NCBI GenBank assembly: GCA_001769385.1
Contig: MEPB01000087.1
Span: 1-43,926, forward strand
Direction: 5' to 3'
Source: Bacteroidetes bacterium RIFCSPLOWO2_12_FULL_35_15
GTDB taxonomy: Bacteria; Bacteroidota; Bacteroidia; 2-12-FULL-35-15
DNA length: 43,926 bases
The notes under the pieces are model-generated. The model did no database searches. It was not told the DNA's origin and saw nothing but the letters and a program-made list of their open reading frames with translations. Shown piece after piece: positions 2,258 to 8,016 of the stretch. The position numbers and the translations under genes are program-made. Each line of letters begins with the position of its first letter. The stretch's first letter is position 1.

Positions 2258-2261
2258 TTGA
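2235..2261 (+). CDS. possible 8-codon leader peptide overlapping the channel-peptidase start
   Basis: ATG at 2235 opens a frame reading MLNFKEVF and stops at TGA 2259-2261. That stop overlaps the TTG start of the next gene in the sequence TTGA, the arrangement of translationally coupled genes. Alternatively this is the real N-terminus of the next protein: one extra T in the run at 2256-2259 would join both frames. I cannot tell a coupled leader from a sequence error or chance. Confidence 0.25.
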   Translation: MLNFKEVF

Positions 2262-4465
2262 ATATCCTGCTCGACAAAATAAAAACAAATTATTGGCTTC
2301 AATGTATTTTGAATAGCTATAGTTTAATGTTGTTTTCATTAGATAATGTTTTTGCGTTTATTATTTTGATTGTTACATTCTTTTCTCCAATTGTTGGGTT
2401 ATGTGGATTTCTGGCAATTGTCCTTATAAATTTTTTTGCATACGTTATTGGATTTAACAGAGAAGAAATACAAAAAGGAATTTTTGGTTTCAATGCACTA
2501 TTTCTTGGTCTTGCCATGGGTTATGAATATTCACTCAACGCTACCTTTATTATTTTATTTATTACAGGAGTTTTAATTTTGCTTCTTATAACTGTTTGGT
2601 TGAAGGGATTATTTGCTGTTTACAATTTGCCATTTTTATCATTCCCTTTCATCATCACTTATTGGATCATTTCTTTAGCGGCAACAAATTTTACGAATAT
2701 CCATTTAGATGAAACGCACATTTATACTGTTAATGAAATAACGCGTAATCAAGCTTCATCATTTTACCAATTTGTTCATTCGCTCGACACTATCCCAATT
2801 TTTTCTTTTGCCCTTATTTACTTTAAAACACTTGCCGGCACTTTTTTTCAAAGCAGTGTTTTAGGCGGAATGTTACTTGCCCTGGGGTTAATCTATTTTT
2901 CACGAATTGCATTTTCATTGAGTCTTATCGGATTCTTCTGTGCTTATTTTTTTTATTCACTTTTCGGTGCAGATGTAAACGATTTAAATTATTATTTGCA
3001 GGGAGCAAATTATATTTTCCTTGCTATTGCAATCGGGTGTTTTTTTATAATTCCTAATACCTATAGTTATCTTACAGTGATACTACTAATACCGGTGTTA
3101 ATGCTGATATTGTTGTCGATTGGAAAAATACTCGGAACATTTCAATTGAAGGCCTATACTTTTTCCTTTAGTGTTGTTTGCACAGCTTTTCTCTTTTCAT
3201 TAAATCAACGTTGGCTACACAACTATTTACAAGTTGTTACCATTCAATATTTTTCTGCTGAAAAAACTATTTATAAATATCTTAACTCCATCCAACGTTT
3301 TAAGAATGAACATTTCAATAAGATCATTCTCCCATTTTCCGGTGAATGGAATGTTAGTCAGGGTTATAACGGTAAGATAACTCATTTAGGAAACTGGAGC
3401 CAGGCTTTGGATTTTGTAATTGTCGATTCGAAACTACAGACTTATCATGAGCCGGCAAATGTCAGAGATTTTTCAAGAGAAAATTTTTACTGTTATAACA
3501 AAGAGATTTTTGCACCTTATGATGGATATGTTTATGACATTGTCAATACAGTTGAAGAAAATGATGTTGGTGAGTTGGACACAGAGCACAATTGGGGAAA
3601 CACAGTAATTCTGAATCATCTCAATGGATTATTTTCTCAGATAAGTCATATTAAAAAAGACTCCTTTAATGTTTTTATCGGGCAATATATCACGAAAGGA
3701 ACATTTCTTGCAACATGTGGTAATTCAGGTCGTTCACCTGAACCGCACATTCATTTTCAACTGCAGACAATTCCAACAATTGGAGCGAAAACAATTGAAT
3801 ATCCTATTTCCTATTTCATCGAGCGGAAGGGACCGGAGAAAACTTTAAAAATTTCAGAAGTTCCTAAAGAAGGTTCATTTATAAGCAATGTGCAGGTAAA
3901 TGAATTATTGATTACCGGTTTTTCCTTTTTACCGGGACAAAAAATTTCTTTTCAAAAAGAAAACAGTACTAGCTTAATCCATTGGGAGGTTTTTACAGAT
4001 GCCTATAACAGAACTTATCTTTATTGCGAAGCAAGTAAATCCTATGCTTACTTTGTGAACGATGGTATTATGATCTATTTTACTGATTTTGAAGGAGACC
4101 GAAGATCATTATTGTTTTACTTTTATCTGGCTGCATACAGGCAATTACTTGGTTATTATGAGAACATAAAGATAAAAGATAATGTTCCCTTGATCCATTT
4201 CAACAATAAAGTGATCCAATTTTTTCAGGATTTTGTTGCTCCGTTTTATTTGTTTACCAAAGCAAATCACACCTCCACTTTTACTTATGCAGATAATATT
4301 TATGCTCCTCAAAAAATAATTATCCGTACCGAAATTGAAACGAAACTTATAAATTACACATTAAAAAAAATTAATTTTGAAATGGAATTAAAGGATAATA
4401 AAATGCATCGGTTCATTATTCATAGTAACAATAAAACCGAATCATATTTATATGTATCAACCTAA
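2258..4465 (+). CDS. urea-transporter-family channel fused to an M23 peptidase domain
   Basis: The 735-residue protein has two parts. Residues 1-320 are about ten membrane segments of the urea transporter (UT) family; the two family repeats are visible as GIFGFNALFLGLAMG (about 74-88) and LQGANYIFLAIAIG (about 247-260). Residues about 355-525 form an M23 (LytM-like) metallopeptidase domain with H376 and D385 (in the YALDF-like variant, here SQALDF), H464, and the HxH pair H497/H499, so all metal and catalytic positions seem present. Residues 525-735 are an unrecognised beta-rich tail. I infer that the channel passes urea or a similar small solute while the peptidase domain faces the periplasm and cuts or binds peptidoglycan peptides. 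TTG 2258 is chosen because the next in-frame Met (residue 24) lies inside the first UT segment and TAA at 2246 blocks extension. No urease genes are in the window. Confidence 0.82.
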   Translation: MNILLDKIKTNYWLQCILNSYSLMLFSLDNVFAFIILIVTFFSPIVGLCGFLAIVLINFFAYVIGFNREEIQKGIFGFNALFLGLAMGYEYSLNATFIILFITGVLILLLITVWLKGLFAVYNLPFLSFPFIITYWIISLAATNFTNIHLDETHIYTVNEITRNQASSFYQFVHSLDTIPIFSFALIYFKTLAGTFFQSSVLGGMLLALGLIYFSRIAFSLSLIGFFCAYFFYSLFGADVNDLNYYLQGANYIFLAIAIGCFFIIPNTYSYLTVILLIPVLMLILLSIGKILGTFQLKAYTFSFSVVCTAFLFSLNQRWLHNYLQVVTIQYFSAEKTIYKYLNSIQRFKNEHFNKIILPFSGEWNVSQGYNGKITHLGNWSQALDFVIVDSKLQTYHEPANVRDFSRENFYCYNKEIFAPYDGYVYDIVNTVEENDVGELDTEHNWGNTVILNHLNGLFSQISHIKKDSFNVFIGQYITKGTFLATCGNSGRSPEPHIHFQLQTIPTIGAKTIEYPISYFIERKGPEKTLKISEVPKEGSFISNVQVNELLITGFSFLPGQKISFQKENSTSLIHWEVFTDAYNRTYLYCEASKSYAYFVNDGIMIYFTDFEGDRRSLLFYFYLAAYRQLLGYYENIKIKDNVPLIHFNNKVIQFFQDFVAPFYLFTKANHTSTFTYADNIYAPQKIIIRTEIETKLINYTLKKINFEMELKDNKMHRFIIHSNNKTESYLYVST

Positions 4466-4513
4466 TTTTTTATAAATCAAATAGAATATTCATCTATCCA
4501 TAAAATAATCGAA

Positions 4514-5128
4514 ATGAAACTTTTAAAAAAATCAATAACGGCTATCCTGCTTATCACAGCTATAAGTGTTCAAGCGCAAGACAAAACATTAATGAATGCA
4601 TTTAGTCAATCCTACGACTATGAAGCAATAAAAAAATATGATGCCGCAATATCATCTTTAAATACTGTTTATAATGCATCATCTTATGAGATCAATCTTC
4701 GTTTGGGATGGTTAAATTATCAATCAGGGAAGTACAAAGAAGCTCTTGGATTTTATCAAAAAGCAATTACCTTAATGCCTGCGGCTTCTGAGCCATTGTG
4801 GGCAATAATCAATCCGCTTACTAAATTGGAAAACTGGAACGATATAGAAAAAACATATCTTTCTATTTTAAAATTAGATTCCAAAAATTCCTCTGCAAAT
4901 TACAATTTGGGATTAATTTATTACTACCGTAAAGATTATTTAAATGCAAAAAAACAGTTCGACATCTCTTTAAATCTTTATCCTTTTGATTATAATAATA
5001 TGTTAATGAGCGCATGGACAAATTATTTTTTAGGTAACAAAAATGAAGCAAAAACTTTATTCAATAAAACATTATTGTACAGTCCTAATGACAAATCTGC
5101 TTTAGAAGGGTTAAGTTTAATTAAATAA
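4514..5128 (+). CDS. secreted TPR protein 1
   Basis: This 204-residue protein has a signal peptide (residues 1-22, ending SVQA before QDK) and three to four tetratricopeptide-like repeats, for example NLRLGWLNYQSGKYKEALGF and NYNLGLIYYYRKDYLNAKKQ. It should act as a periplasmic or envelope-bound protein-interaction scaffold. It begins 48 bases after the channel-peptidase gene and is clearly paralogous to the protein at 6791-7408 (shared LRLGWL, PNDxSALEGLxLIK ending). The pair bracket an outer-membrane barrel gene, so the three are probably parts of one envelope assembly. No enzyme motif is seen. Confidence 0.8.
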   Translation: MKLLKKSITAILLITAISVQAQDKTLMNAFSQSYDYEAIKKYDAAISSLNTVYNASSYEINLRLGWLNYQSGKYKEALGFYQKAITLMPAASEPLWAIINPLTKLENWNDIEKTYLSILKLDSKNSSANYNLGLIYYYRKDYLNAKKQFDISLNLYPFDYNNMLMSAWTNYFLGNKNEAKTLFNKTLLYSPNDKSALEGLSLIK

Positions 5129-5151
5129 AGTACAAAAGCATAGTTAGATGT

Positions 5152-5170
5152 ATCAATAGAAAATATTGAT
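5152..5170 (+). promoter_or_regulatory. intercistronic hairpin
   Basis: ATCAATA (5152-5158) pairs with TATTGAT (5164-5170) over a GAAAA loop, inside the 87-base gap before the barrel gene. GATGTATC (5147-5154) and GATACATT (5187-5194) offer a longer alternative pairing. There is no T-run, so it is more like an RNA-processing or attenuation element than a terminator. Confidence 0.35.
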
Positions 5171-5202
5171 CCCGGTTCACAGAAAAGATACATTATCATT
5201 AC

Positions 5203-5209
5203 GAGGAGG
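5203..5209 (+). promoter_or_regulatory. strong Shine-Dalgarno sequence
   Basis: GAGGAGG sits six bases before the ATG at 5216. Most starts in this window lack such a sequence, as is usual for Bacteroidota. It supports this ATG as the barrel protein's start and suggests translation that does not depend on the genes upstream. Confidence 0.6.
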
Positions 5210-5215
5210 CGATTA

Positions 5216-6778
5216 ATGCATTTAAGCAGAATTTATAAGATCCTAATTTTTGTTTTTTTATTTCAAATTACTAAAAGTATCGCCCAGGACACTTTAAATT
5301 CAGCCATTGTAGAACAAAAAAGTTATCAGCTCTATCTTGATAAAAATTGGGGTGAACTCATTAAATACGGGAATATTGCAGTAGATAAAGGTTACGATTA
5401 TTTTTACTTACAAATGAGAATTGGCATTGCTTTTTATGAAAAAAAGAATTATTATCTTGCTGAGGTTCATTTCAGAAAAGCATTAAAATATAGTTCCAGC
5501 GATGACCTAGCGCTGGAGTATTTATACTATTGTTATGTCTATACAGGAAGAATGGAAGAGGCAAGAAAATTTAGTAAAATATTCGGCTCTCCACTTGCAG
5601 AAAAAATCGGAACAAATAAATTTTCACCCATTGGATATGTTAATCTTGAAGGGGGGACAAAGATCAATACTAATAGCACCTTTGTTGACCCAAAAACCAA
5701 TACAAATCAAAATTATTTTAACCCGTCAACCTATTTCCAATTATCTCTGAATCACTATGTAAAAAACAAGTTTTCTTTGTTGCATGCGGCCAGTTATTAC
5801 CAGCAACAATATTATTCTGCGATCCCGGAATTAAATCACCCACAAGCATACAGCAGTAAGGAAATTAAACAGTTGCAATATTATTTAAAGGCAACTGTTC
5901 CAATCAAAAATAATTGGATGATATCGCCTTCTATCCATTTGATAAATTTTAAAAAAACGTCCGATAATTCTGCATATGCAGCCCAAGAACAGAAGTTAAC
6001 ACATGACCAACAATCAATACAACAGCAACAACAACCTCTCATTCAACAGCAGCAACAATTACAGCAACAAGCAAATGGCGACCAACAACAAATTAACCAA
6101 CTGCTGGCATTACCACAACCATTACCTCCCATGCAACAAAATCAGTTGAATTATTTGCAAGGGGACCTTTATAATGTGCAACAACAATTAAATGGTATTC
6201 AACAACAATTAACTAATAATCAACAACAAATAGATAGTTATAACAAACGTATTAAGGACGCACGAGATGCCCAAAAAGTTGGGCCCACCATAAAAAACTA
6301 TTTTGTTGCCTCATTAACTATTCAAAAAACAGTTAAAAAAATAGCTTTTTCGATTGGAACAACAGTTTCTAATTTTGATACAACAACTCAATTTAATCAC
6401 TTCGGAAGAATAGCTTATTCGGTTTTAGGTAATAACAAACTGGTTTTAGGAGGCACAGGTTATTTTCATACTATTGACAGTTATAAAAAAACGTATTCTT
6501 CGTTTTCACCATTTATTTATATCCAACCAATAAACCGTTTATCAATTACCGCCTGTTATTTTTTGAATAATGGACATAATATCATGGAAGATAATGGTGC
6601 TTTGGTTAATAACTCTGTCGATCTGACTACTTCAAGATGGTCGTTTATTGCTAATGTCAATCTCAGCAAACATATATCTATGTATGGTTTGTATCAAATG
6701 GAACACAAAACAGAAAAGATTCAAAAATTTAAATATAACTACAACACATTCCTGGTTGGATTTAAAATAATTCCATAA
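5216..6778 (+). CDS. TPR plus outer-membrane beta-barrel protein with Gln-rich insert (YaiO-like)
   Basis: This 520-residue exported protein starts with a signal peptide (residues 1-24, ending SIAQ). Residues about 30-135 carry TPR-like helices (RIGIAFYEKKNYYLAEVHFR, LEYLYYCYVYTGRMEEARKF). From about 140 to the end it is made of alternating aromatic/polar strands typical of an outer-membrane barrel (SPIGYVNLEGG, YFQLSLNHYV, RWSFIANVNLSKHISMYGLY) and ends with FLVGFKIIP. Residues about 257-350 interrupt the barrel with a Gln-rich, coiled-coil-like stretch. The order TPR then barrel resembles YaiO-type proteins. It lies 12 bases before TPR protein 2. The likely role is an outer-membrane pore or anchor for the channel-peptidase block; what it transports is unknown. 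Confidence 0.7.
   Translation: MHLSRIYKILIFVFLFQITKSIAQDTLNSAIVEQKSYQLYLDKNWGELIKYGNIAVDKGYDYFYLQMRIGIAFYEKKNYYLAEVHFRKALKYSSSDDLALEYLYYCYVYTGRMEEARKFSKIFGSPLAEKIGTNKFSPIGYVNLEGGTKINTNSTFVDPKTNTNQNYFNPSTYFQLSLNHYVKNKFSLLHAASYYQQQYYSAIPELNHPQAYSSKEIKQLQYYLKATVPIKNNWMISPSIHLINFKKTSDNSAYAAQEQKLTHDQQSIQQQQQPLIQQQQQLQQQANGDQQQINQLLALPQPLPPMQQNQLNYLQGDLYNVQQQLNGIQQQLTNNQQQIDSYNKRIKDARDAQKVGPTIKNYFVASLTIQKTVKKIAFSIGTTVSNFDTTTQFNHFGRIAYSVLGNNKLVLGGTGYFHTIDSYKKTYSSFSPFIYIQPINRLSITACYFLNNGHNIMEDNGALVNNSVDLTTSRWSFIANVNLSKHISMYGLYQMEHKTEKIQKFKYNYNTFLVGFKIIP
5983..6262 (+). other. Gln-rich low-complexity insert in the barrel gene
   Basis: CAA/CAG codons cluster here and encode runs such as QQQQQ, QQQLNGIQQQLTNNQQQ. 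Leu/Ile residues recur in a pattern suited to a coiled coil, so this is probably a helical arm that extends from one turn or loop of the barrel rather than disorder alone. The codon runs could expand or contract by replication slippage. Confidence 0.6.
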
Positions 6779-6790
6779 AAAATCATACTC

Positions 6791-7408
6791 ATGAAAATCA
6801 TTAATAACATTTTAATCGGCAGTATATTATTCTTAAACATCACTTCCACATTGGCACAAACAGATAAAGTCGTTGCCGCTTTTTCAAAAAGTTATACGGA
6901 AGAAAAAAATGCGGATTATGTAGGTGCAATTATGACCATTAAAGAAGTATATGATGCCAAATCTTACGAATTAAATCTTCGGCTTGGTTGGCTTTATTAC
7001 GAAGTTGGACAAAACAAAGAATCGATGTCGTTTTATCAACTGGCAATGAATCTAATGCCGAATTCTATTGAGGCAAAATTAGCATATGTTTATCCTGCAG
7101 CTGCTTTAGGAAACATGGATCAGGTAGTTGCACAATACAAAAAAATATTAGAAATTGATCCTCAAAACACCACTGCAAACTATAAAATGGGGATGATTTA
7201 TTATTATAAGAAAGATTATCCTGCAGCAACTACCTATTTTGAAAAAGTAGTAACTATTTACCCTTTCGGATACGATACTTTATTGATGTACGCCTGGACA
7301 AATTTTCAACTGGGGAAAACAAATGAAGCAAAAGTATTATTCAATAAAGTGTTAATGCTTTCACCAAACGACACATCCGCGCTTGAAGGCCTCGCCTTAA
7401 TAAAATAA
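6791..7408 (+). CDS. secreted TPR protein 2 (paralogue of 4514-5128)
   Basis: The 205-residue protein has a signal peptide (residues 1-22, ending STLAQ) followed by TPR repeats such as NLRLGWLYYEVGQNKESMSF and NYKMGMIYYYKKDYPAATTY. It aligns with TPR protein 1 along its whole length, with the best-kept parts in LRLGWL, YYYxKDY, AWTNxxLG and the ending SPNDTSALEGLALIK, so the two arose by duplication. It follows the barrel gene by 12 bases and probably shares its transcript. It should work in the periplasm as an adaptor to the barrel or the M23 domain; this role is inferred only from context. Confidence 0.8.
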   Translation: MKIINNILIGSILFLNITSTLAQTDKVVAAFSKSYTEEKNADYVGAIMTIKEVYDAKSYELNLRLGWLYYEVGQNKESMSFYQLAMNLMPNSIEAKLAYVYPAAALGNMDQVVAQYKKILEIDPQNTTANYKMGMIYYYKKDYPAATTYFEKVVTIYPFGYDTLLMYAWTNFQLGKTNEAKVLFNKVLMLSPNDTSALEGLALIK

Positions 7409-7557: not shown

Positions 7558-8016
7558 ATGAGCAAACCTACGTTTGATGAAATTTATATGGAGTTGGCAG
7601 AGAACCTGGCCAAAAGATCACATTGTGTGAAAGCTAAAGTAGGCGCTGTACTTACAAAAGATACACGAATTATTTCACTGGGTTATAATGGTCCACCTGC
7701 AGGAACACATAATTGTGATGAAGAATGGCCGGAAGTTGGTTGCCCGCGCGACAGCAAAGGAAGTTGTTCATTAGCTCTGCATGCTGAGCAAAATGCAATT
7801 TTATATGCAGCAAAAAATAATTTTTCTGTTGATGGATCCACCCTTTATGTGACCTTATCGCCATGCATTTCTTGTGCACGTGTAATTTTCACCACTGGAA
7901 TAAAAAAAATATATTACTTAAATTCCTATGCTGATTTTAAAGGGTTACCAAGCGATGAAGGTGTTGATTTTCTAAGAAAATTTGGTGTCGAAGTGGTTCG
8001 GTACATTAAGAAGTAA
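7558..8016 (+). CDS. dCMP deaminase-family protein (ComEB-like)
   Basis: The 152-residue protein is a complete zinc-dependent cytidine/deoxycytidylate deaminase. HAEQNA (H75, E77) supplies a zinc ligand and the proton-shuttling glutamate, and PCISC (C103, C106) the other zinc ligands. NGPPAGTHNC with the C/H cluster around residues 51-70 is typical of dCMP deaminases. The expected reaction is dCMP to dUMP, feeding thymidylate synthesis in the cytoplasm. ATG 7558 gives the usual family length. The S41 protease gene follows 45 bases later on the same strand. Confidence 0.88.
   Translation: MSKPTFDEIYMELAENLAKRSHCVKAKVGAVLTKDTRIISLGYNGPPAGTHNCDEEWPEVGCPRDSKGSCSLALHAEQNAILYAAKNNFSVDGSTLYVTLSPCISCARVIFTTGIKKIYYLNSYADFKGLPSDEGVDFLRKFGVEVVRYIKK

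Follow-up and report, generated by a model that had tools for sequence, protein, structure and literature searches.

The window analysed here is a stretch of 43,926 nucleotides, the contig MEPB01000087.1 of Bacteroidetes bacterium RIFCSPLOWO2_12_FULL_35_15. On its plus strand, an open reading frame (ORF) with a TTG start (2258..4465) encodes a protein of 735 residues in which a channel domain of the urea transporter (UT) family is joined to an M23 metallopeptidase domain in a single chain. We tentatively favour the reading that this UT-M23 protein could be the inner-membrane transport and processing part of a conserved small-molecule cassette of the Bacteroidota. The other members of the cassette, namely a PqqD-type protein of the RiPP recognition element (RRE) class, in which RiPP stands for ribosomally synthesized and post-translationally modified peptide, an ATP-grasp ligase and a pyridoxal phosphate (PLP) decarboxylase, accompany the fusion in other sampled genomes. 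Their genes are absent from the window and so had no place in the first-pass annotation, which was made from the sequence of this DNA. The open-licence literature yielded no description of either the fusion or the cassette; PMC8939145, which the searches brought up, contains nothing on urea, decarboxylases or M23.

The fusion itself is confirmed by ORF calling, Pfam, structural modelling and comparison with relatives. In a Pfam scan, the UT family PF03253 covers residues 15-314 (2300..3199, plus strand) at 4.6e-40, with 138 bits against a curated cutoff of 25 (7.3e-41 in the phylum survey), while Peptidase_M23 (PF01551) matches residues 414-503 at an E-value of 1.1e-11. The homologues were aligned as a set of 45 fusions of 640 residues or more, from which L056 (532 residues), L082 and L085 were excluded; 42 of the 45, without L037, L042 and L043, entered the alignment used for profiles and modelling. 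A profile built from these 42 sequences matches the urea transporter dvUT at 4.8e-49, and the AlphaFold2 (AF2) model of the window protein reaches a predicted local distance difference test (pLDDT) score of 88.8. Residues 1-346 of this model align with solved urea transporters at Z 33-34 (33.2 for dvUT, 3k3f), which places them within the UT fold, and residues from about 350 to 534 align with M23/LytM domains at Z 12-14. The joining of a UT channel and an M23 peptidase, proposed in the first-pass annotation, is thus upheld, and the finding that would have spoken against it, a first half outside the UT family, is ruled out by the PF03253, dvUT profile and fold matches. Outside its own clade, the window protein shares 24-39% identity with its relatives in the UT part and 38-55% in the M23 part, the latter being the closer of the two in all 31 aligned proteins.

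To define how widespread this architecture is, whole genomes were sampled from one phylum, the assignment to Bacteroidota being drawn from named relatives. A UT match occurs in 36 of the 296 genomes: 26 carry it in a fused frame, G005 in two overlapping frames and eight as a stand-alone protein, and G218 retains a remnant that scores under the family cutoff. The combination of PF03253 and PF01551 is therefore carried by 27 of 296 genomes when the split frame of G005 is included. That this many genomes carry the fusion, and that all 45 aligned proteins preserve five M23 residues, argues that the fusion is not a chance event. The G005 locus (L082, 7444-9698) shows an apparent frameshift between the UT and M23 parts. 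The fusion of G255, counted among the 26, is devoid of the C-terminal tail, and the 532-residue relative in L056 (1810-3408) stops just past M23, with the M23 motif residues present by eye. When plasmid records were searched with the L062 relative as query, 14 of 72,556 gave a match, in no case spanning more than 80% of the query and always to the UT or the M23 part alone. Among named strains, Mucilaginibacter glaciei ZB1P21 (L049) also carries the full cassette.

Co-occurrence links the fusion with the enzyme genes. In all 26 fusion genomes other than the window's own, an ATP-grasp ligase and a PLP decarboxylase are encoded just upstream of the fusion, and in 21 of these a PqqD-type protein is present as well. 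Of the 48 fusion neighbourhoods tabulated, 34 lie outside the window clade (L085 repeating the locus of L052), and all 34 carry both enzymes within four genes upstream; in 30 the gap before the fusion is below 20 bases or the genes overlap, and in 27 a PqqD homologue is found (not in L048, L050, L056, L057, L059, L063 or L071). The cassette examples scanned against Pfam match PF05402 (PqqD), PF15632/PF02655 (ATP-grasp) and PF02784/PF00278 (decarboxylase), with PF05402 at 1.9e-12 and 3.3e-14 in the two PqqD proteins scanned. The fusion and ATP-grasp surveys draw on the same 296 genomes, matched by genome handle: close ATP-grasp orthologues (E 3e-90 or better) are confined to 26 of the 27 genomes that carry UT-M23, and none of the other 269 genomes has one. 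The score drops from 303 to 61 bits after the 26th genome, and 60 further genomes contain only weak matches, from 1.6e-16. Across 31 loci, pairwise distances between fusions track those of the ATP-grasp ligases (r 0.92) and of the decarboxylases (r 0.87), a correlation that none of 2000 permutations equalled in either case.

The exception among the 27 is G000, the window's own genome, in which no ATP-grasp match and no PqqD family protein was detected and the decarboxylases are distant only (24-26%). A survey of 41 relatives gives the same picture. The fusion is present in 17, of which eight possess the ATP-grasp ligase at 1e-30 or better and eight, with window-type fusions (74-100% identical), do not, four of the latter genomes being 75-87% complete. 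In the seventeenth, G309, the ligase was not found, but the fusion sits at the very start of the contig. None of the 24 relatives without the fusion has the ligase. This survey probably shares assemblies with a 20-locus contig scan and is not independent of it; that scan, with short peptides from the window protein as queries, reaches close relatives only. In L042 and L043, less than 200 bases precede the fusion, so that the absence of upstream genes there proves nothing. The decarboxylase of the relatives shares the fold-III PLP decarboxylase domains of the NCBIfam families LysA and FslC, but that of L045 scores 225 and 224 bits against cutoffs of 298 and 500. The LysA-like protein of the window's own genome contains the motif GPICESSD, whereas the cassette enzyme has GPLCMNID and an extra N-terminal tag. 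G300 contains two PqqD/ATP-grasp/decarboxylase sets: the copy in L141 runs to the contig end, and that in L142 has the fusion after it and, before it, genes for a hybrid histidine kinase and for response regulators, one with a LytTR domain.

In the mechanism that we tentatively favour, a cytosolic PqqD-type RRE protein would dock, in full cassettes, a lasso-leader-like tag at the N-terminus of the decarboxylase, and this enzyme, together with a ligase resembling CPS (carbamoyl phosphate synthetase), might yield a small amine or amide derived from an amino acid. The UT-derived pore could then let the product or a precursor pass the inner membrane. M23 domains located at the pore on the cytoplasmic face, numbering three for each complex should the fusion still form the UT trimer, may cut an amide or peptide bond, and periplasmic proteins with tetratricopeptide repeats (TPR) and a TPR-barrel protein would extend the route over the outer membrane. 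The lineage of the window would have retained only the transport half, comprising the fusion, two TPR proteins and the barrel. A bolder version, on which we would place less weight and which is on the doubtful side, sees here a new biosynthesis-and-transport system: an RRE docks an enzyme via a lasso-type leader, the product moves through a former urea channel put to a new use, where a cytoplasmic, membrane-anchored M23 domain of non-murein type does the gating or processing, and then through TPR adaptors and a porin, and one lineage has kept the transport half, perhaps for uptake of a compound made by others. If the favoured mechanism is correct, a UT subfamily widespread in one phylum, which automatic annotation would name a urea transporter, would have to be set apart from urea transport; an M23 peptidase would act inside the cell, and the decarboxylase would be a further case of an enzyme tagged with a lasso-type leader.

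The selectivity filter of the channel differs from that of urea transporters. We take the So filter residue to be E187 of dvUT and the Sm filter threonine to be T130; the corresponding positions of the window protein are Gly194 (2837..2839) and Ser128 (2639..2641). At So, Glu or Gln is found in none of the 45 fusions, being replaced by G, A, S, L, I, F or Y and thus often by a hydrophobic residue, versus 8 of 8 stand-alone UTs; at the first Sm position, Thr is likewise found in none of the fusions, which have S or A, versus 8 of 8 stand-alone UTs, one of which was read from two frames. The Si glutamine is kept in part of the fusions, although not in the window protein, and other filter positions are variable. 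In PMC4357013, which names the filter sites of UT channels, So of mammalian UT-A2 is a Gln; a change from E to Q is therefore tolerated, and the changes in the fusions are larger. The residues that coordinate urea are consequently missing from the fusions, which makes the urea-like uptake suggested in the first-pass annotation doubtful, and the alignment suggests that the UT-derived pore has lost the selectivity of a urea channel. Urease genes were found in none of the 48 fusion neighbourhoods versus 5 of 8 stand-alone UT loci, and no urease alpha subunit was found in the window's own genome, in agreement with the lack of urease noticed initially. The fusion thus resembles dvUT and the UT family in fold, profile match and predicted topology, but differs in the joined M23 domain, the altered filter and the neighbouring genes. 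These replacements at So and Sm, and a UT part less conserved than the M23 part, would also fit a UT domain that has ceased to be a channel and instead holds M23 in position, as a trimeric scaffold in the membrane or as a sensor of small molecules. We consider this somewhat unlikely, as the UT fold is predicted to be intact and the exported barrel partners suggest the passage of a solute.

The tag on the decarboxylase is a recurrent feature of the relatives. The hexamer [YF]xxPx[ILV] lies near the N-terminus in 33 of 33 distinct decarboxylases and in the first 40 residues of 28 of 496 other ORFs (200 residues or more); a longer pattern, with G and a K-containing NKFG-like end, is found in 30 of the 33. 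According to PMC10368454, YxxPxL is the conserved leader motif of the lasso precursors studied there, and lasso B1 RREs are PqqD homologues. The relatives thus share with the lasso system a YxxPx[ILV] tag and a PqqD protein in one operon-like block, a pairing of RRE and matching leader motif that the window's genome does not have, but in their cassette the tag is on the decarboxylase and not on a precursor peptide. By analogy, the PqqD-type protein may bind the tag. A RiPP-like alternative would assign the M23 domain, predicted to be cytosolic, the role of a leader peptidase that cuts the decarboxylase tag after RRE docking, with the UT part as an anchor, and the co-occurrence of tag and PqqD protein with the fusion is consistent with it. 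We nevertheless judge it unlikely: no lasso cyclase, B2 protease or small precursor peptide stood out among the recurrent neighbours (one example per cluster, ORFs of 60 residues or more), and in the window clade the M23 site is intact although the window's own genome is devoid of ATP-grasp, PqqD family protein and close decarboxylase. The clade having lost the enzymes and yet kept M23, the substrate of this domain would be something other than, or besides, the tag.

Downstream of the fusion, the window encodes three proteins on the plus strand, which the first-pass annotation described as TPR, TPR-barrel and TPR. The first (4514..5128, 204 residues, TPR_2 at 1.1e-15) and the third (6791..7408, 205 residues, TPR_2 at 1.4e-18) are paralogues (phmmer 2e-56). 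The second (5216..6778, 520 residues) has a TPR_1 match at 6e-4, below the curated cutoff, and a presumed outer-membrane barrel, with homologues beside the fusion in relatives. Export of all three is predicted from signal-like N-termini judged by eye, and the barrel is presumed from the sequence; its homologues end in F, Y or W in 19 of 41 cases, and the window protein ends in P. A TPR homologue occurs within three genes downstream of the fusion in 41 of 48 neighbourhoods and a barrel homologue in 40 of 48, so that the proposed link between fusion, TPR and barrel is conserved, and the other finding that would have spoken against the first-pass annotation, neighbours in relatives without such a link, is ruled out. 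L044, L048 and L085 run into contig edges; the misses in L039, L056, L057, L058, L059, L064 and L082 may be real. The barrel protein of the window also contains a Gln-rich stretch of about 100 residues (5975-6280), shared with L031 (12.5% Q overall) and not seen at the same place in L032 or L035.

The M23 domain (3305..3817) retains the full set of zinc and catalytic residues expected of the family: the predicted zinc ligands H376 (3383..3385) and D385 (3410..3412, in the H-x8-D spacing), the predicted catalytic H464 (3647..3649) and the H497-x-H499 motif (3746..3754) are unchanged in all 45 fusions, as had been anticipated from the window protein. UT termini are intracellular, as stated for UT-A in PMC12649947, and no further transmembrane (TM) helix can be seen in the AF2 model where the chain passes from the UT domain to M23. 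With sides assigned from the model's helices, and with L042 and four partial stand-alone frames excluded, all 44 fusions and all seven stand-alone UTs scored have more K+R on the side bearing the termini, with means of 6.9 in the window clade and 8.9 in the others versus 2.0 on the opposite side. The Cys content of M23 plus tail is 1.08%, compared with 0.15% in the mature TPR proteins, 0.37% in the barrel proteins, 0.79% in the decarboxylase and 0.51% in the ATP-grasp ligase. Charge bias and Cys content predict that the M23 domain faces the cytoplasm and not the periplasm. The first-pass annotation had instead envisaged an inner-membrane UT for urea-like solutes, a periplasmic M23 domain acting on peptidoglycan, and TPR and barrel proteins completing a trans-envelope unit. 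The exported partners, an M23 model that folds like the murein endopeptidases DipM, ShyA and lysostaphin, and a tail weakly like LolA speak for this arrangement, but the charge distribution, the Cys-rich M23, the lost urea site and the lack of urease render it quite improbable; its UT identity, intact M23 site, absence of urease and TPR/barrel link stand, while the periplasmic placement is not supported and the urea uptake is doubtful. Ordinary urea or nitrogen transport with accidental neighbours, to which UT family membership would otherwise point, is barely credible in view of the co-occurrence (26 of 26 versus 0 of 269), the congruent divergence, the lack of urease and the lost urea site.

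Several observations weigh against the favoured reading. ATP-grasp and PqqD are not needed for M23 conservation, because the window clade keeps the M23 site although the window's own genome has neither. The enrichment of positive charge inside is a rule only, applied here to sides set from the model's helices. LolA, a carrier protein of the periplasm, is among the tail's best likenesses, and this lowers the confidence in an inside placement of M23. Among stand-alone M23 relatives, K+R exceeds D+E between the last TM helix and M23 in only 4 of 8 scored, and the haloarchaeal stretches carry a balanced or net acidic charge, with a short basic motif noticed by eye. Lastly, neither TPR nor barrel is found downstream by homology in L082, L057 and L056, the last having a barrel homologue upstream; L058 lacks the TPR gene, and L039, L059 and L064 lack the barrel within three genes downstream.

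A point in favour of the main reading is that the M23 domain resembles TM-anchored proteins: it aligns nearly full-length with M23 proteins of Haladaptatus (35% over 155 residues; WP_266081979.1) and Thermus (33% over 157 residues), whereas the six other M23-like matches of the window's own genome cover it only partly (best 9.4e-8). These haloarchaeal and Thermus proteins share the CGNSG motif and hydrophobic N-terminal segments, but their anchor consists of a few TM helices instead of a UT channel, and the short flanking stretches fetched contain no gene named PqqD, ATP-grasp or decarboxylase. Nine of 12 plasmid-borne stand-alone M23 proteins inspected have, by our own cut, a hydrophobic segment near the N-terminus; such a segment is missing from the Haloferax protein and from one Streptomyces protein, and a Mesorhizobium protein looks exported. 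From these sequences, M23 domains of this type appear to be often membrane-anchored, and since their charge is clear in only 4 of 8, they are of little help in deciding which side the domain faces. Plasmids of haloarchaea, Thermus and Thermomicrobium carry M23 proteins (L125-L131) that have CGNSG and, in most cases, hydrophobic N-terminal segments; haloarchaea are not known to have murein.

The C-terminal tail (3821..4462, plus strand) is modelled as a beta-rich domain (pLDDT 89.9). Left unrecognised in the first-pass annotation, the tail of the window protein matches no Pfam family at an E-value of 0.5 or lower, and a Pfam scan of 42 fusion tails returned nothing beyond isolated weak matches, each confined to one or two members. 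Searches against PDB sequences returned nothing at E under 0.3, and Foldseek nothing at 0.001 or better (best E 8.4e-3). The highest structural Z, 8.8, is to the KdgM porin at 6% identity; these weak likenesses of the model, to LolA/FABP-like cups and a small porin, concern shape only.

Two further genes flank this block. On the minus strand, 1458-1895 encodes a 145-residue protein without a Pfam or NCBIfam match, with a homologue next to the fusion in 11 of the 14 neighbourhoods of the window clade (absent in L036, and in L042 and L043, which are contig ends). The product of 7558-8016, matching ComEB at 7.8e-28 and an anti-phage dCTP deaminase at 2.5e-26, both under the cutoffs, is deoxycytidylate-deaminase-like.

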